Shown here one piece after another: positions 173 through 11,138 of a stretch of 62,980 nucleotides of DNA (position 1 is the stretch's first letter; every line of letters begins with the position of its first letter). This DNA is from Oryzomonas sp. (GTDB taxonomy: Bacteria; Desulfobacterota; Desulfuromonadia; Geobacterales; Pseudopelobacteraceae). The DNA is taken from the NCBI GenBank assembly GCA_031292255.1, contig JARLHN010000019.1:1-62980 (forward strand). Reading direction: 5' to 3'. The position numbers and the translations under genes were made by a program. The notes below the pieces were generated by a model. That model was not told the DNA's origin. It did not search any database and saw nothing but the letters and a program-made list of their open reading frames with translations.

Positions 173-230
173 CGTACCAAAAGTGTTGCCTGATGATTTT
201 AACAGAGATTGATGAAAGGAGTTGCTACAC

Positions 231-3200
231 ATGCATAAAAGAATACTGGCAATCTTAACCCTGCTCTGTGCCATCCCGCTGCTGGCATTTGCGGGAACGG
301 GACAGCAGCAAATCAACACATGGGTTAGATCGGCGGGCGGTACTCTACAGGTGGATTCCTATCCTTCGACTACGTCGAAGAACGGAAGCCTCTGGCAGTC
401 GTATTCGTCTTCAACGACTAACAACACAGTGACCATTACGCCTAGTGAAAATTATTTCGTCAACAGCCTGATCATCGACGGCGTACCACAAGATCTAACC
501 AGCCTCCAAGTAGCGGGCACGGTTTTGAATTCCTCTAATGTTTCCGCATTGGCGATCGGCGCTTCTGACGCCGCTCCATCCGTCTGGGTTGACTTCCTGA
601 GGAGCCAACTGAGCTTTACGGTGAACACAGGCGCCAACTACATCGTGTTCCCCAGCGGTGCGCAGCCTAACGTATATGCCGGAGCAACCTTCCGCGTATT
701 CGAATTCATCCCGGCCAAAGGTCAGTATATTTCGGCCATCAACACGACTGGGACCATCCGCTATACCACCCAGCCTTCTTCTCTTCCGGCAGCAGCCAAC
801 CAGAAGGTTATCGTCACGGTTTCCTCGATCACCACCAGCGGTACTCTTTCCGCGACCGTCGCCGGTACTGCGGCACAATCCAGTGTTCCGACAACTGCTG
901 CTACAATCGCCCAGGTCGGCCGTGCATGCGATGCCTGCCATATCGCACAGGGGCTTGATCCTAAACCGAGTGTTCCTGTTTTTGCATCATGGTCTGCCAG
1001 CGCACACAAAGCAGCAGGAGTTGCTTGTGCTGATTGCCACCAGGGAGCAAGTACCGGCGCGCATCCCGGCATCATCAACACCACACTCTGCCAAAACTGC
1101 CACGATACCGCTGCTTCCGGCGGCATCCCGACCGGCAATCCGCACAGCCCGTTAACCATCGGCCCTGCGGCGACGACATCAGGCCATCCGGCCGTACCTT
1201 TGTATACTTATGAAGAGGTCGGCATGCAGATGGCCGGCGGCGCAAAAGTACAGGTACAGGTGGACGCAAACGGCAAAGGCATGCCCTACAGCCCGAAACA
1301 GACCTGCGGCAGCACGAAAGGCTGCCACATATACAACAACGCAGACTACAGCTACGACAAGATCTCCGACACGGCATTCCACTCTCACGAGGGAAGAGCT
1401 GAGTACATGGACCTCAATAAAGGTAAGTTAATGCCAGGGCTTGACAAACCATGGGTGCAGTCGACAGCCATGGTTGGCAAGTGGTGACCTCCCTCTCTTC
1501 GCCAGGTGGCGAACTTAACGAACCAGAATTACAACAACCCTACCGGTCCTATTACAGCTCTTGATTACTCAAGCAATCTTACCAAGTTTTTAAATGGCGA
1601 TACCACCGCCACGGCAGCCAGCTCCGTCCTGCTTCAACCTGCCACAGTTACGTACACCAAGGTAGACCTTTCAATGTGGGATGAAGCCACGGAATGCGGT
1701 TTTTGCCATCCGGGCGGCGGTTTTGTCGAGAAAGACAGAAACGGCAAACGCTACAGCCAGATGAGTCCGACTACAGATGGCATGACACCTTTCAACGCGA
1801 CAGTATTTGAGTTGTATTCCACCACCACCGGACTGCCAAAGCATAAGGTCATCGTATCACCGTGGTCCTATCCGCTCTACCAGAATGGTGCGCCTGTTAT
1901 CACCCCTGGCGGTTGGGGGCAGACCGCGACCATGCAATTGCCTGACGGTAGCCCGATGCCGGTGTTTGCCGGTCAAGTAATGATGCCCAACGTCAAGGAA
2001 TTTGACTGCCTCGCCTGCCATTTCGAGGGGTACAGCAATCTGATGTCGTCCGTAATGAGCATGAGCGGCGGCCTTAACGCGGGTCCATCTTTTGGCGCCG
2101 GCTTCATGAACATGTTTACCCAGGCTTATGACTTCACAACAGGGATGTTGCAAAAGGATAGTAGCGGCAACGTATCCCTGACCCCGGCGTTCTTTACCAA
2201 AATGACGGCACAGCCTTCAAGCCAGAACTGCCGTAACTGTCATATGCCGTCCGGGCTCAAAGACCTTCCGGACATGATGAACGACTTCCTCTCGGGCGCT
2301 CCGATGGCCTACACCGGGAGCTTCACGCAATCGTTCACCGGTCTCGCCATGCCGGCTTTCGACTTTAACGCTCCCTTCGGCTACACATGGGATTGGACAG
2401 TGCAAGGCAGCACCTCCCCTACCCTGTACATGACCCAGACCGGCATCGGCAGCACGACCTCCTTCACCACTACGATACCGTCAGGATGGCCGTCCGCCCT
2501 GGGGATGACCCCATTCAACGCTGCCGCTTTATCAAATTTCTCTTCCGCCATGCCCGCCGGCTACAAGCAGTACTTCCTGGGCGGTGGCAACCCTGCAGGC
2601 TCCGGCCCGATCTACTTCCAGGCCACCATCCCCGGCTCCGGCGGCATGCAGGACCAAAACGCCCTCAAAAAAGGAATTCTTCCGTTCCCAAGGGCCGAAT
2701 GGTTCAAACGTGGCGATCTCTGGGCCGCGGATGCCGATGTTCATTACAGCCTCGAATGCTCCGGCTGCCACATGAATACCAACACGACAAAGGTGGACGT
2801 ATTTGCAGCGCCCACGAGCGCAAGCAACTCCAAGACCGTCTTCAACGGCAAGAGCCTTTGCGATCCGGGTAGAGGCTTCGACTGGTTGAGCGGCACCGAG
2901 GGCAATGCGGCCCTCAGGACGAAAGTCAACAGCCAGAACACCGTCAAGAAATGCGAGAACTGCCACCTCACCGGTCAAAACAGCGATGGCGTCGCCATCA
3001 ACACCTACGGCGCTCCCAATCCGACCGCCAAGCATCAGCAGTACGGCTTGCTGAGGAATGTCACCAACAAGGTCATTGCCACATCGGCTGCTGTCTTTAC
3101 CGCAGCGGGTGATGCCAATCCTAATGGCAGTCAAACGCTGGCCAGGGGCAATCACCTCGATGTCGTGGATTGCACTGTCTGTCACCTGTACCGGAAACAG

Positions 3201-4373
3201 ATGGCAGTCCGCATGCTCGACTCCTCCTCCGGCGCCCGCTTCCCGAACATGATCGGTTTCGATGCAAGCCGCGGCATGCTCGGAATGTTCTCCAACCCAA
3301 TGCCTGGTACGATTCCGGCAAACACCAACCTTCAAGAGTGGAAACCGGCCTACATCTGGCAAAAGTACGGCAACTACTGGAAGACCAACGATGACGGCAC
3401 CGTCAACAGTAATTGGAACCGTAAAATCTATCCGGTCAACTTCATCACCGCAAGCCTCTGGAACAACGTTGACCCAACTGTCGACGCCAACGGCGACGGC
3501 GTGAACGGCAGCCCGGAGATCGCCCATGTCGGCAATTATGCAAGTACTGACGGTGATTATCCCGGTTCCACGTCGACCGTCTACGACCCATGGATCTCCC
3601 GCGACCTGAAAGCCGGCATGAACTTCGGCCCATCCGGTTTTGCACCGATCCCGGTCGGTTTCGGCGGCAGTACCTATCAGACCGCCTATGACAGCAACGG
3701 AGCCTTTACCGGCGCCTGGCAGTTTGTAGGCGTCTACGGCGGGAACGTCGAGTTCTCGACCCCGGAAGAGATCTCTGCGTACAAGACCTATCGGACCCAG
3801 ATTTCAGGGGCTGTTGACGGCAAGAGCTGGAGCGGTACACAGATGACATTCATTGGAGCTCCTTTTGCCATGACGCATGGCGCAAGGGCGACATCAACCT
3901 ACGTGGTGGGCAAAAGCTGCACCGATTGCCACTCCACGACGTCGAATATGATAAACGTCTTTGCCGGGTCGGTCGACATGCTCGGCACGGCAATAAAGGC
4001 AACCGCAGGCAATCAATTCATGCAGTCCCCGGCCACGCAGTTCACCGTAGTCGGGGCCAAGGACGATATTGCGACGGGCGCCGAAGTGACCACCAAGCTT
4101 GGTTACTCCTATGAGCTCTCGTTCGAGCAGCTCTGCGACTGGAATTCAACAACCAAATCATGCACTCCCGATGCGAATGGTGCATACAAGCAGGTTACCC
4201 CGCTCGACCAATCCCAGGTTCTTTATCCGGTCGATACGGGCCAGGCCGGCATAACGCTGCCGTACGTTTACCAAGACGTCACGGGTGCCAGCTATGCCAA
4301 CAGGGCTGCGTGGATCAACTACATTACCGATCCAGCCGCCGTCAATGCGGTAGCGAACAAAGTGGCGCCCTGA
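231..4373 (+). CDS. Predicted selenocysteine-containing multiheme c-type cytochrome (read through TGA 1485-1487)
   Basis: One reading frame runs from ATG 231 to TGA 4371-4373 (1380 residues) with a single internal TGA at 1485-1487, residue 419. ATG 231 is chosen over TTG 222 because AAAGGAG (215-221) sits 9 nt upstream of it. Residues 1-24 are a signal peptide ending AFA. Heme motifs before the TGA are CDACH (233-237), CADCH (266-270), CQNCH (287-291) and a stretched C-x5-CH (359-366). After it come seven CxxCH motifs near residues 489, 592, 667, 843, 908, 981 and 1230. The part after the TGA has no signal peptide and no ribosome site of its own, so it could hold heme only if made as one chain with the first part. 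A SECIS-like hairpin follows the TGA, and selC and selB lie nearby. Likely role: extracellular or periplasmic electron transfer. The alternative is a nonsense mutation or two separate genes. Confidence 0.8.
1485..1513 (+). promoter_or_regulatory. Bacterial SECIS-like element: UGA codon plus hairpin
   Basis: The in-frame TGA (1485-1487) is followed after 10 nt by a perfect 6-bp stem, TTCGCC (1498-1503) with GGCGAA (1508-1513), closing a four-base loop AGGT (1504-1507). Known bacterial SECIS elements have a small apical loop about 16 or more nt after the UGA and a G among the first two loop bases; here the gap is 16 nt and loop base two is G. The only possible separate start of the second half, GTG 1506, lies inside this hairpin with no Shine-Dalgarno sequence before it. 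Confidence 0.75.
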
Positions 4374-4575: not shown

Positions 4576-5103
4576 ATGAAAGCGAGCAATTCCGGGATGA
4601 TGAAAAGAAATCTTGTAATCCTTACCCAGATGGTTTTTCTCTTTGCCGCCGGCATCCCCGCATGGGGATTTGACGGCATGGAGAATATCGCCCAGGTCAG
4701 GAAACTGGCGGAAAACGGGGATGCGGATGCCCAGTCGAAATTGGGCGTTTTCTACGCCTCGGGCGTGGGCATAACGATGGACAAGCAGGAGGCGGTCAAG
4801 TGGTATCAGAAGTCGGCCGACCAGGGATATCCGATCGGCCAGTGGAACCTGGCATTCATGTACGTGAAAGGGGAAGGGGTTGCGACCGACTACGATAAGG
4901 CGCGCGAACTGTTCCGTTCATCGGCGGAAAGCGGCTTTGCCAATGCCCAATACGATCTGGGCATGATGCTTCTGTACGGGCTGGGAGGCAAGCAAGACCG
5001 GAACGAGGCGGAAAAGTGGTTTCGCATGGCGGCGGAGCAGGGATACCGGGAAGCGAAAAAGGCCCTGAGTGAGCTTGATGCCAAACAACTGCCGAGCCCC
5101 TGA
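4576..5103 (+). CDS. Exported Sel1-like repeat protein
   Basis: A 175-residue protein with a hydrophobic signal segment (about residues 9-28). Three Sel1-like (SLR/TPR-related) repeats follow, marked by A-x-S-x-L-G..Y..G.G, A..WY.K.A.QG, and F..SAE.G.A.AQ..LG patterns, ending with EKWFRMAAEQG. Such repeats form helical scaffolds for protein contacts; no catalytic residues are seen. The start ATG 4576 has AAAGGG (4562-4567) 8 nt upstream. It lies between the cytochrome and the foldase lipoprotein on the same strand, which suggests an envelope assembly or scaffold role, but that is inference. Confidence 0.8.
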   Translation: MKASNSGMMKRNLVILTQMVFLFAAGIPAWGFDGMENIAQVRKLAENGDADAQSKLGVFYASGVGITMDKQEAVKWYQKSADQGYPIGQWNLAFMYVKGEGVATDYDKARELFRSSAESGFANAQYDLGMMLLYGLGGKQDRNEAEKWFRMAAEQGYREAKKALSELDAKQLPSP

Positions 5104-5212: not shown

Positions 5213-6226
5213 ATGTATTCAAAAAACACGTTGTCCAAATCACTCATCCTTATCGGTAGCATGCTGATGTTCATTTCTGCCTGCTCGCTTTCCTCGTCAA
5301 AAGGAACCTCGGCAGTGCCTGCCCCTGAATTCTCCGGCGCCGATGCCAATAAGACCGTCGCCAGGGTGAATGACAAAGAAATAACCGCTGTCGAACTCAA
5401 GCGGGCCGAAAAGATACTCATTGCCAACAAACCGGGCCTGCAAATCCCACCGACAATGCATAAAGAGTTCGAAAAGCAGGTTCTTAACCAAGAGATCACT
5501 TCGGAACTGCTTTTCCAGGAGAGCCGGAAACTCGAGATCAAGGATCTGGACAAGCAGGTGGAGGCAAAGATCGCCCAGGTGAAAAACGGGTTCCCGGACA
5601 GCGAGAAGTATGTCAAGCAACTCGGGAGCATCGGCCTGGACGAGAAAACGTTTGCCGATTCCGTCCGCCGCGACATTTCCATCGCCTATGTTGTCAAGAC
5701 GGAGATCGCCCCTGGTATTTCCGTCCGCGACGAGGAGGTTAAAAAGTTTTACGATCAGAATCCGGACAAGTTCCGCCAGGAAGAACAGGTACGGGCGAGT
5801 CACATACTGATCGGCGTTGACGCCAAGGCTGGGCCGGAAGCCCAAAAGGCGGCTCGCGACAAAGCGGAGAAACTGCGCGCCGAGCTGGTGAAAGGAGCTG
5901 CTTTCGCCACACTGGCCAAGGAGAATTCCACCTGCCCCAGCAGCAGACAGGGTGGGGACCTCGGTTTTTTCGGCAAGGGGAAAATGGTCCCGCCATTCGA
6001 ACAGGCCGCATTTGCACTTAAACCGGGAGAGTTGAGCCCGGTTGTGGAAAGCCAGTTTGGCTATCACATAATCAAGGTGGTAGAGCGGAAAAAAGCGGAA
6101 ACGATAACGTTTTCCGCTGCAAAAAACAAAATTGAAGAATACATAAAGGCTCAAAAAACCAATTTAGCCATAGATGTTTTTGTTGGCGAACTCCGCAAGA
6201 ATGCCAAGGTCGAAGTACTGTTGTAA
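5213..6226 (+). CDS. Parvulin-type peptidyl-prolyl isomerase lipoprotein (SurA/PrsA-like)
   Basis: A 337-residue protein starting at ATG 5213, with GGAGG (5198-5202) upstream. The N-terminal hydrophobic segment ends in an ISAC lipobox, so it should be lipid-anchored in the envelope. A SurA_N-like helical region (about residues 40-180) is followed by a rotamase domain (about 195-295) with the parvulin hallmarks ASHILI, GGDLGFF and FGYHIIKV. The family catalyses proline cis-trans isomerisation and acts as a chaperone for exported proteins. Its place just after a giant multiheme cytochrome suggests help with folding of exported cytochromes or outer-membrane proteins; this is inferred from position only. 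Confidence 0.88.
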   Translation: MYSKNTLSKSLILIGSMLMFISACSLSSSKGTSAVPAPEFSGADANKTVARVNDKEITAVELKRAEKILIANKPGLQIPPTMHKEFEKQVLNQEITSELLFQESRKLEIKDLDKQVEAKIAQVKNGFPDSEKYVKQLGSIGLDEKTFADSVRRDISIAYVVKTEIAPGISVRDEEVKKFYDQNPDKFRQEEQVRASHILIGVDAKAGPEAQKAARDKAEKLRAELVKGAAFATLAKENSTCPSSRQGGDLGFFGKGKMVPPFEQAAFALKPGELSPVVESQFGYHIIKVVERKKAETITFSAAKNKIEEYIKAQKTNLAIDVFVGELRKNAKVEVLL

Positions 6227-6466: not shown

Positions 6467-6657
6467 ATTGATTGATCCATCTGTTTGCTTAGAAATATCT
6501 ATTGTACTTTAGGTTATTGATATCAATGGAAGCACATCAGTCGCTGGTGGGCTGCCCGGTCTTCAAAACCGGTGAGGGGGATGAGAAATCTCCCTGGTGG
6601 GTTCGATTCCCATGTGCTTCCGCCATACGCAACCGGCCACAGCCGTCGAAGTAATAA
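6457..6657 (+). repeat. 201-bp direct repeat, copy 1 (contains tRNA-Sec copy 1)
   Basis: This stretch matches 8948-9148 at a constant offset of 2491 with four differences by eye: A6511/G9002, A6575/G9066 and CA6640-6641/TG9131-9132. It begins 7-10 bp before the end of the preceding small gene, so copy 1 carries that stop codon inside the repeat. It includes about 70 bp upstream and 30 bp downstream of tRNA-Sec. Confidence 0.9.
6528..6625 (+). tRNA. selC: tRNA-Sec (anticodon TCA), copy 1
   Basis: 98-nt tRNA with the features of bacterial tRNA-Sec: an 8-bp acceptor stem (GGAAGCAC/GTGCTTCC), discriminator G, encoded CCA (6623-6625), anticodon loop CTTCAAA with TCA at 6563-6565, a long variable arm (7-bp stem around TGAGAAA) and T loop GTTCGATTCC. 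It decodes UGA as selenocysteine with SelB. Unlike copy 2 it has no intrinsic terminator just downstream. It differs from copy 2 by A6575 in the variable arm. Confidence 0.95.
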
Positions 6658-8947: not shown

Positions 8948-9148
8948 GTCAAAATAGATTGATTGATCCATCTGTTTGCTTAGAAATATCTATTGTACTT
9001 TGGGTTATTGATATCAATGGAAGCACATCAGTCGCTGGTGGGCTGCCCGGTCTTCAAAACCGGTGGGGGGGATGAGAAATCTCCCTGGTGGGTTCGATTC
9101 CCATGTGCTTCCGCCATACGCAACCGGCCATGGCCGTCGAAGTAATAA
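8948..9148 (+). repeat. 201-bp direct repeat, copy 2 (contains tRNA-Sec copy 2)
   Basis: Partner of 6457-6657. Recombination between the copies would delete 2491 bp including the kinase and leave one intact selC. This copy keeps a terminator and selB downstream, so it is probably the original locus. Confidence 0.9.
9019..9116 (+). tRNA. selC: tRNA-Sec (anticodon TCA), copy 2
   Basis: 98-nt tRNA identical to copy 1 except G9066 in place of A6575, which turns the first pair of the long variable arm from A-U to G-U. 8-bp acceptor stem, UCA anticodon and encoded CCA are intact. It lies 108 bp upstream of selB and is followed by a hairpin-T-run terminator. Confidence 0.95.
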
Positions 9149-9224: not shown

Positions 9225-11138
9225 ATGGCGAAGAATCTCATTCTCGGCACAGCCGGACATATCGACCATGGAAAGACATCCCTCGTCAGGGTGTTGACTG
9301 GTGTTGACACAGATCGGCTTCCTGAAGAGAAGGCCCGTGGAATAACCATAGAACTCGGGTTCGCCAATATGCTCCTACCTGGGGATATTCATTTAGGCAT
9401 CGTCGATGTCCCGGGGCATGAACGCTTTGTTCGCGCCATGGTGGCCGGCGTTGGCGGAATGGACATAGTGATGCTGGTGATCGCGGCTGATGAGGGTGTC
9501 ATGCCCCAGACGCGCGAGCATCTGGAAATCTGTCGCCTGCTCGGGGTGAAGCAGGGGCTTGTCGCACTTACGAAGTGCGACATGGTTGATTCGGACTGGC
9601 GCGGACTTGTTACCGAGGAGGTGCGCGACTTCGTCGCAGGGAGCTTCCTGGAGGGGGCGCCGATAGTTCCGGTATCAGCCCGCACCGGCACCGGAATAGA
9701 GCTGTTAAAGGAAGAACTGAGGATGATGTCCATCGGCCTTGATCAGAAGAGAAGCGATGGCCCCTTTCGGCTTCCGGTAGACCGGGCTTTTACGGTTGCC
9801 GGGTTCGGCACGGTTGTCACCGGTACTCTTTTGTCCGGCCAGATAAGAGTTGGAGATGAAGTAGAGCTATTTCCTTCGGGGATATACACTAAAATCAGGG
9901 GTATTCAGGCCCATGGCAGCAAAGCCGATGTCGGTTCAGCCGGCCAACGCCTCGCCCTCAACCTTCAGGGTGTTGACAACAACCAGGTGAAACGCGGGGA
10001 TGTTGTGGCCCCTCGTGGGATCTACAGGGCGACTAAAGTTACGGATGTTGAAATTACCTACCTGAAGACCGCGCCACGGCCGCTCAAGCATCGTTCCATA
10101 CTGAGCCTGCACTCGGCAACGTACGAAGTTGCTGCTCAGGTCATGCTTTTCAATAGAGAAAGCCTCGATCCGGGGGACAGCGCATTTGTGCAGTTGCGTC
10201 TCGATCACCCGGTTTTGCTGCTGAACGGAGACCCATTCGTACTGCGCACCTCTTCTCCATCTACTACGGTTGGTGGCGGGATTATACTGGACCCGTCTCC
10301 ACCCAGAAGACGGAGGAGGTCAGCCGAGGCGCTCGCGTTACTTGAGTCGATGTCTCTTGGTGATGAAGCGGAAATGGCAGAGCGTCTTGTTTCTGCGTCG
10401 CTTCTCTCGGGAATTTCATTCCACGACTTGACCAGACGCACCGGATTATCTGCAAAACGGCTGGATATGGCGCTATCTCTTCCCCTTTCTTCGGGCAACG
10501 TGATCCAAATGGTGCGTGACCCACGTTTGTTTTTAAGCCGTAAAAGTTTCAGCGACCTCTGTGAGACACTTTTCAAGGAACTTGAAACATATCTGTCAAA
10601 CAATCCTCTCAAAGACGGCATCGGCAGAGAGGAGTTGAAAACACGGCTACCGACTCGAAGTGACCCACGTTTTTTTACACCTTGTCTTTTGCATCTTGAA
10701 AGCGAACATAGGGTTGTTGCGGAGCGGGAACAGGTAAAGCTTCCGGGTAGAAAGGGAGCTGCCGTTGACAACGATGCCGGCATCCAGAAAAAACTGGAGG
10801 AAATGTTGACCAACAGAGGGTCTGAACCTCCCATGTTGAAAGAACTTTGCGATACACTCCTGCTGCCAGAAAAATTGGTGCTTGAGCACCTGAACCTGCT
10901 TGTCAGGGAAGGACGTGCCGTCAAGATCAAAAGTGACGTATTCTATGCTCTCGAACCTATACGGGTAATATCCCAGACCCTGGTCGAACATCTCCGCTCC
11001 AAGGGAGAGATAACGCCGCCGGAATTCAGGGAGCTTACGGGGCTCTCACGCAAATTCATGATTCCGCTTCTCGAATATTTCGATTCAATCAAAATCACGA
11101 TGAGAGTCGGAGATAAACGCGTGCTGCGGAGAAGATAG
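9225..11138 (+). CDS. selB: Selenocysteine-specific translation elongation factor SelB
   Basis: 637 residues. The GTPase domain has GHIDHGKT (residues 11-18), the RGITIELGF switch I region, DVPGHE and TKCD. EF-Tu-like domains II and III follow to about residue 340, with the [15 protein letters not shown] signature. The C-terminal 300 residues carry the winged-helix repeats that bind the SECIS hairpin. SelB delivers Sec-tRNA to UGA codons. ATG 9225 has TTGGAG 6 nt upstream. It is immediately downstream of selC; selA and selD are not in this window. A neighbour with a UGA-interrupted frame is the cytochrome at 231-4373. Confidence 0.97.

Follow-up and report, generated by a model that had tools for sequence, protein, structure and literature searches.

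A predicted selenocysteine-containing multiheme cytochrome of Oryzomonas and its probable relation to OTR

Cytochromes carrying selenocysteine (Sec) are already published as a kind, in the form of ExtKL of Geobacter (GSU2937-2936), so the protein described here is not wholly new in kind. Sec in ExtKL was proposed in PMC1914089 and is discussed in PMC5877670, which describes a 49.5 kDa pentaheme protein, and in PMC6148476, as far as the accessible sections of these articles go. A second described system is octaheme tetrathionate reductase (OTR; Shewanella SO4144, PDB 1SP3), whose heme 2 is presented in the accessible part of PMC11024163 as catalytic and ligated by a conserved lysine, both being absent from MmcA. 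Here we analyse a stretch of 62,980 nucleotides from Oryzomonas sp. (contig JARLHN010000019.1, positions 1 to 62,980; hereafter the window), in which a gene at 231..4373 of the + strand would encode an exported multiheme selenocytochrome with an OTR-like core.

Two further points of the literature bear on this gene. In the accessible part of PMC5146829, the active-site cysteine of TsdA attacks the S-S bond of tetrathionate to give a Cys S-thiosulfonate, which is reduced by the hemes. The accessible part of a 2026 review (PMC13188914) lists ExtKL together with a GenBank-annotated OTR-family selenoprotein, for which it gives no motif. An OTR selenoprotein is annotated in GenBank as WP_331457571.1. 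The deep-Sep paper does not use the word cytochrome in its main text, and our searches of an open-access library gave no account of the window's family or of Sec at Cys64 of OTR. The original prediction, made from the letters of the window, had tentatively mentioned Sec-containing cytochromes in Geobacter; ExtKL bears this out.

An in-frame UGA codon and its hairpin

Frame translation and homologues define a gene for 1380 residues with a signal-peptide-like start, preceded by a ribosome binding site, GAAAGGAG, read directly from the sequence at 214..221 (+). The translated frame is interrupted only by TGA 1485-1487 (+), which corresponds to residue 419 in the context GKW-U-PPSLRQ, and by its own terminator, likewise TGA. 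Three CxxCH motifs lie upstream of the internal codon and seven downstream, ten in total. The original prediction had taken two cytochrome frames in the same phase for one fused gene, with a signal peptide on the first part and with seven CxxCH, but neither signal peptide nor ribosome site, on the second; this description holds. The start at 231 is signal-peptide-like as judged by eye, rather than with a prediction program. The earliest possible restart past the UGA, GTG 1506, has no ribosome site like GAAAGGAG just upstream in the sequence as read, and the frame that it opens does not, again by eye, begin like a signal peptide.

Homologues were sought in 76 genomes of the family (the window's own included), 141 of the order and 395 of the phylum. 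Within the family, six other genomes hold long homologues of the part beyond residue 298, each with one internal TGA. The order survey scored at most four candidates in each genome; in it, an eight-row profile matched 45 of the 141 genomes at E 0.001. An internal TGA was present in all 28 long matches (those extending over >1000 of the profile's 1239 positions), including the window's own, whose row shows two because the second is its terminator. Matches spanning the site contained no stop other than TGA in either survey. The original prediction had proposed looking for Cys or UGA at this position in homologues, and had named splitting into two genes and neutral drift past the UGA as signs to the contrary. 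The 28 long matches are unsplit and carry UGA, farther relatives carry UGA, Cys, Ser or other residues, and the ratio of nonsynonymous to synonymous substitution (dN/dS, simple counts) downstream of the codon comes to 0.43 in the comparison with L048 and to 0.20 in that with L032.

Two short peptide patterns retrieved 17 loci from a collection of named genomes, among them Geomonas, Geomesophilobacter, a Geobacter and several metagenome-assembled genomes. L040, L044 and L046 come from Geomonas or Geomesophilobacter strains. As many as three paralogues share a cluster. Family A, that of the window, reads GKW-U-xPSLRQ; family B reads GSW-U-PPSARQ and similar; and family C reads GKW-S-PxYNRQ and similar, with the serine encoded by TCN. 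Pairs of A and B selenocytochromes were seen in the clusters of L034, L035, L036, L038, L047, L051, L055 and others, some with the serine paralogue C as well; 6-heme and 11-heme cytochromes lie close by in L034.

In the phylum, a profile of A, B and C matched 87 of the 395 genomes, and 47 loci were read, 30 at first and then 17 chosen for spanning the site without a stop. The first 30 comprised 21 with UGA (families D and E among them), five with Cys (L090-L093, L095), two with Ser (L105, L116) and two that fell short of the site. Five of the further 17 have Cys (L181, L182, L183, L192, L193), and the other 12 have Gln, Leu, Met, Trp, Phe or Ser within sequence that is otherwise alike. Exchange of UGA for a cysteine codon is a classical sign of selenocysteine; here, Cys occupies the Sec column in ten loci of farther relatives, and one near pair sets GGRW-U-SPAPLF (L114) against GGNW-C-SPAPLY (L182). 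Once identical stretches and short rows had been removed, 59 rows (48 with U, 5 with C and 6 with S) remained for a tree, which was built before the 17 later loci were read. It places each of the families A-E on one side of a branch with a value of 100 in the Shimodaira-Hasegawa-like approximate likelihood ratio test, the sole support measure used. The residue at the site requires four changes on this tree, which is unrooted and has long branches. In the family D proteins (L106, L109, L110, L111, L115), a Sec eight-heme domain precedes a C-terminal part resembling, by eye, a membrane b-type cytochrome.

The codon is followed by a hairpin of the selenocysteine insertion sequence (SECIS) type at 1498..1513 (+), which starts at the 11th base past the UGA and has a stem of 6 bp (1498-1503 with 1508-1513) and an AGGU loop. 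Such a hairpin at a suitable distance had been predicted, and comparison and covariation now sustain it. If the T of TGA is numbered 0, the stem joins positions 13-18 to 23-28, and the loop is AGGU in 28 and AGUU in 30 Sec contexts. At least five of the six stem pairs form in 58 of 58 distinct Sec contexts, compared to none of 12 Ser or Cys homologues, which encode a nearly identical peptide; these sets leave out L114 (Sec, other spacing), L116 (Ser) and one chance second match in L103. One side of pair 17/24 is the silent third position of an arginine codon, and it changes with its partner (C-G 53, G-C 2, U-G 2, A-U 1), and leucine is encoded by TTG in all 30 Sec rows that have it, compared to one of the 12 controls. 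Across an alignment of 52 rows, 48 of them distinct, the share of paired cells is 96.9%, compared to 86.7% after shuffling, and the covariation score is 0.298, compared to 0.123; none of 500 shuffles was as high in either measure. The score falls when the partner column is shifted by one to three, and RNAalifold recovers the same hairpin unaided. The folding energy of the window's hairpin alone is unremarkable (z -0.83; 40 of 200 shuffles fold equally well). The weight of the hairpin therefore comes from the comparison, and its energy is not used as proof.

The machinery for Sec insertion is complete in the same genome, with SelA, SelB, SelD (itself with one in-frame TGA) and tRNA-Sec. A tRNA-Sec search found two copies in the window, at 6528..6625 and 9019..9116 (both +; one mismatch between them), and the gene annotation places selB, the Sec-specific elongation factor, at 9225..11138 (+); the predicted location of selC and selB within 8 kb of the UGA thus proved correct. 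In a set of 24 locus neighbourhoods, in which five places appear under two locus names, selB lies near the gene at eight and tRNA-Sec at four. The two tRNA-Sec genes are 2.4 kb apart and flank a PAS histidine kinase, and the 100 bases preceding them are 90% identical. A weaker third candidate over the cut-off (55 bits) lies at G000:C30:106276, and strong tRNA-Sec matches number three in G050 and two each in G052 and G053. The conserved UGA, the Cys and Ser variants at its column, the covarying hairpin and the complete machinery together make Sec insertion at 1485-1487 almost certain, as read from the genomes compared.

Probable relation of the core to OTR

The Sec-containing part of the window protein exceeds the cut-off of no NCBIfam or Pfam model. 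It has no match at E up to 1 to the OTR family TIGR04315 (cut-off 375 bits), of which it is not a member, and none to the MmcA model TIGR04314 (cut-off 250 bits). With PF22113, the model of MtrC/OmcA-type outer-membrane cytochromes (gathering score 30), the window protein scores 15.1 bits, below that score, and family B scores 48. The sister families come closer: TIGR04315 gives family B 31 bits (E 1e-7) and family D 24 bits (E 1e-5), and TIGR04314 matches both at E 5e-11 (42 bits for B), all below the cut-offs. A search for a solved relative by sequence returned only PKD domains of collagenase and weak matches, and no candidate was retained.

Profile comparisons carry the relation further. 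Family A aligns with B and C at probability 100 and E 1e-130, with Sec on Sec. Alignment A3, which joins A, B and C, matches OTR at probability 95.5 over hemes 4-7. The family D set does so at probability 98.9; its local alignment takes in hemes 3-7, and forcing a global one brings in hemes 1, 2 and 8. The lysine of FKRGD is aligned with that of VKHGD in OTR, and DVH with DVH; in 57 of 59 rows, a loose regular expression finds a KxG motif in the interval from heme 4 to heme 5. Counting residues of the 1SP3 chain on the alignment puts Lys153 in VKHG and Cys64, which falls between hemes 1 and 2, in NNFC. We take Cys64 to be part of the active site of OTR. The Sec of the window's family lies in the same interval between hemes 1 and 2.

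The corresponding features can be followed along the window protein. Its heme-1-type motif is CGSTKGCH (CX5CH; residues 359-366, 1305..1328, +), identified from alignments in which the spacing differs among relatives (CxxCH, CX4CH, CX5CH or longer) and C, C and H are invariant (A3, A5). Profile alignment identifies the heme 2 motif, CGFCH at residue 489 (1695..1709, +), as the putative counterpart of the catalytic heme of OTR. It also makes Lys826 of the KRG motif (2706..2708, +), invariant in alignments A1, A3 and A5, the putative counterpart of Lys153, and pairs His838 of DVH upstream of heme 5 (2742..2744, +) with the DVH of OTR. The profile match ends between positions 1047 and 1064 of 1239 in the window, G098, G119 and G129, before the PKD domain, which is present in the family A protein of L034.

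These comparisons support the view that the core past the N-terminal module is an eight-heme domain, the sister families of which would be remote relatives of OTR and MmcA. Membership of the core in the OTR superfamily is very probable, and we infer, with somewhat less confidence, that Sec419 is equivalent to Cys64.

Sec also appears in genuine OTRs. An OTR family search matched 185 of the 395 phylum genomes, 69 over the cut-off, many matches having one TGA. Among the best 29 new OTR loci, all over the cut-off, the residue exactly at the NNF-C site that corresponds to Cys64 is U in 13 and C in 16; on these alignments, UGA replaces Cys64 in genuine OTRs. A hairpin GGUGC-AGGU-GCACC follows in 11 of the 13 Sec OTRs and is missing from all 36 Cys OTRs; L143 and L144 form a different hairpin. 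An extra cysteine (NWCRC for NWPRC or similar) is present in 11 of the 13 Sec OTRs (L139, L148, L149, L152, L154, L156, L159, L161-L163, L165) and in none of the 36 Cys OTRs. This cysteine may be imposed by the hairpin stem or may act as a partner for Sec. In L151, near 1675-3129 (+), a frame of 485 residues with 11 CxxCH stands beside the OTR; its internal TGA, ahead of a GPPPP stretch, is a candidate for Sec or a chance occurrence.

Proposed function and alternative explanations

Taken as a whole, the observations are probably best explained by a single exported Sec protein with an OTR-like core that acts as a terminal reductase. SelB, tRNA-Sec and the adjacent downstream hairpin would allow UGA 1485 to be read as Sec, giving one exported protein; without selenium, a fragment of 418 residues with three CxxCH would result. 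Sec419 would sit in the pocket of heme 2, with Lys826 as the presumed ligand of the heme 2 iron, and electrons would arrive through the chain of the other hemes, lengthened here by the three N-terminal ones. Sec would then serve as both nucleophile and two-electron redox group beside heme 2. A selenol is expected to attack an S-S bond readily. The likeliest substrate would be an S-S compound (polythionate or polysulfide-like) or an S- or N-oxyanion, split through an intermediate of the Se-S type that heme 2 would then reduce. That the substrate has an S-S bond is a guess, and a rather doubtful one. Sec probably serves catalysis beside the presumably Lys-ligated heme, since it sits between hemes 1 and 2 like Cys64, where genuine OTRs also carry UGA. 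The original prediction had envisaged an electron-transfer cytochrome whose Sec is a heme ligand or redox centre: the Sec stands, and the protein is better read as an OTR-superfamily enzyme with Sec near a presumed catalytic, Lys-ligated heme.

Several observations weigh against this explanation. Two of five covariation measures do not surpass the shuffles: pairs changed on both sides were equalled in 37 of 500 and further pair types in 496 of 500. The copy in G125 is broken into pieces, two of them with TGA, and the dN/dS against L048 is higher downstream of the UGA than upstream (0.15). None of the family A proteins scanned (the window protein and two A-type proteins) matches the OTR or the MmcA model, and the family E stretch (L103) matches neither at E 0.1. 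Family A alone aligns with OTR at a probability of only 33.6 over 18 columns; the direct comparison thus fails, and it is families B, C and D that provide its link to OTR. The program hhalign leaves Sec419 unpaired with Cys64, as the local alignments start past Cys64 and the forced global one misplaces the loop. Finally, the 12 of the 17 further relatives with neither Sec nor Cys at the site keep hemes 1 and 2, and the serine paralogues occur within the same clusters, so a selenol or thiol is dispensable for the fold. The alignments show that some whole lineages appear to manage without Sec or Cys at the site. In one subgroup (L185-L188, L190, L191, L194, L195, L197), GxYGKH or similar replaces GKW-U; hemes 1 and 2 are retained and Sec or Cys is lost.

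The alternative that survives best, although we regard it as improbable, has Sec tune a heme for electron transfer, as a structural or an axial ligand, in a protein that conducts electrons and is no enzyme. The many relatives lacking Sec or Cys at the site would suit such a role, as would MmcA, a related protein that the accessible part of PMC11024163 describes as an electron conduit. However, the same source has MmcA without heme 2 and its lysine, whereas the window's family retains both motifs, and the position of the Sec fits that of Cys64, where Sec occurs too.

Two further alternatives are very unlikely, to about the same degree. The window protein could be a selenocytochrome of the ExtKL type, the published Sec cytochrome of Geobacter; however, NF040886 is absent from its NCBIfam matches at E up to 1, and the pentaheme ExtKL of 49.5 kDa, as given in the accessible section of PMC5877670, contrasts with 1380 residues and ten CxxCH. 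Alternatively, the UGA could be read as another amino acid (Trp, Cys or Arg) without selenium. Readthrough of UGA is known in bacteria generally, but a covarying hairpin at a fixed distance that is missing from homologues with a Cys or Ser codon, TGA as the only stop type in matches spanning the site, and selB and tRNA-Sec genes near some of the loci all speak for Sec. The weakest alternative, a real stop that leaves a three-heme cytochrome and a degenerate or separately translated second gene, has in its favour that the upstream frame could by itself make a small cytochrome and that the hairpin alone is ordinary, but it has next to no chance and was rejected: the UGA and its conserved flanks are kept in every long match, neither a signal-like start nor a ribosome site follows the UGA, the sequence past it is constrained, and in seven other A rows the piece upstream of it (126-200 codons, stop to stop) has no CxxCH at all.

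Extending the exported Sec reductase to the phylum, we slightly favour a picture in which many lineages would possess OTR-like octaheme enzymes with Sec in place of the reactive Cys64 by the Lys-ligated heme, exchange for Cys, loss in some, giant exported forms of more than 1300 residues and two selenocytochromes per cluster. Gene callers that terminate at UGA split such genes, so exported enzymes of metal- and sulfur-respiring bacteria are easily missed; relatives with the Sec feature are widespread in the phylum yet almost unstudied. If Sec occupies the Cys64 site of OTR, a single active site would combine selenium and heme chemistry, variants with Sec, Cys or Ser that occur in nature could serve to study what Cys64 does, and a respiratory step in sediments and soils would be controlled by the supply of selenium. 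Placing a heme and a selenol in the same site would be catalytically new: selenium would assist a terminal reductase that acts on sulfur compounds or other acceptors.

N-terminal module, neighbouring genes and comparison with known systems

Homologue matches delimit an N-terminal module at residues 1-295 (231..1115, +) with three CxxCH, in which two Pfam heme models exceed their cut-offs. It is 73% and 69% identical to two other proteins of the same genome. An origin of the module as an assembly chimera was considered and rejected, as matches in other genomes also cover it: those of L044, L048 and L040 extend into it from residues 21, 179 and 211, respectively. For the remaining 14 of the 17 loci from the scan of named genomes, the matches begin at residue 298 or later. 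On contigs C2 and C16 of the window's genome (G000; 69% and 73% identity), the genes with this module lie in the first 1.3 kb, near the contig starts like the window gene. Repeats may have broken the assembly at these genes.

Downstream of the gene, a Sel1-repeat protein is encoded at 4576..5103 (+). This neighbour recurs at three of the 24 loci, L040, L044 and L048, exactly those whose match enters the N-terminal module. It is followed at 5213..6226 (+) by a PpiC/SurA-like parvulin with a lipoprotein-like start, a relative of which is found at 17 of the 24 loci; the adjoining parvulin may assist folding of the cytochrome.

With ExtKL, as far as the accessible sections of its literature describe it, the window protein shares the nature of a multiheme c-type cytochrome with an in-frame UGA predicted to encode Sec. 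It differs in heme number, size (about 49.5 kDa for ExtKL) and setting, since ExtKL belongs to the ext gene cluster and its profile does not match the window protein. MmcA, the heptaheme cytochrome of methanogenesis, is OTR-related and its model reaches families B and D, but the window protein has the heme 2 motif that MmcA is described as lacking. TsdA, a thiosulfate dehydrogenase/tetrathionate reductase, offers a chemical model in the reactive cysteine at a heme that attacks an S-S bond; it is a diheme protein, and the analogy is one of mechanism only. From OTR, the window's family differs in lying far below the family cut-off, in being undetectable from family A alone, in long inserts, in a heme-1 motif of CX4CH or CX5CH in most A rows, and in an added N-terminal heme module or C-terminal PKD domain. 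With OTR it shares, by way of families B and D, eight hemes in the same order, a lysine after heme 4, DVH before heme 5, and a single Cys or Sec between hemes 1 and 2.

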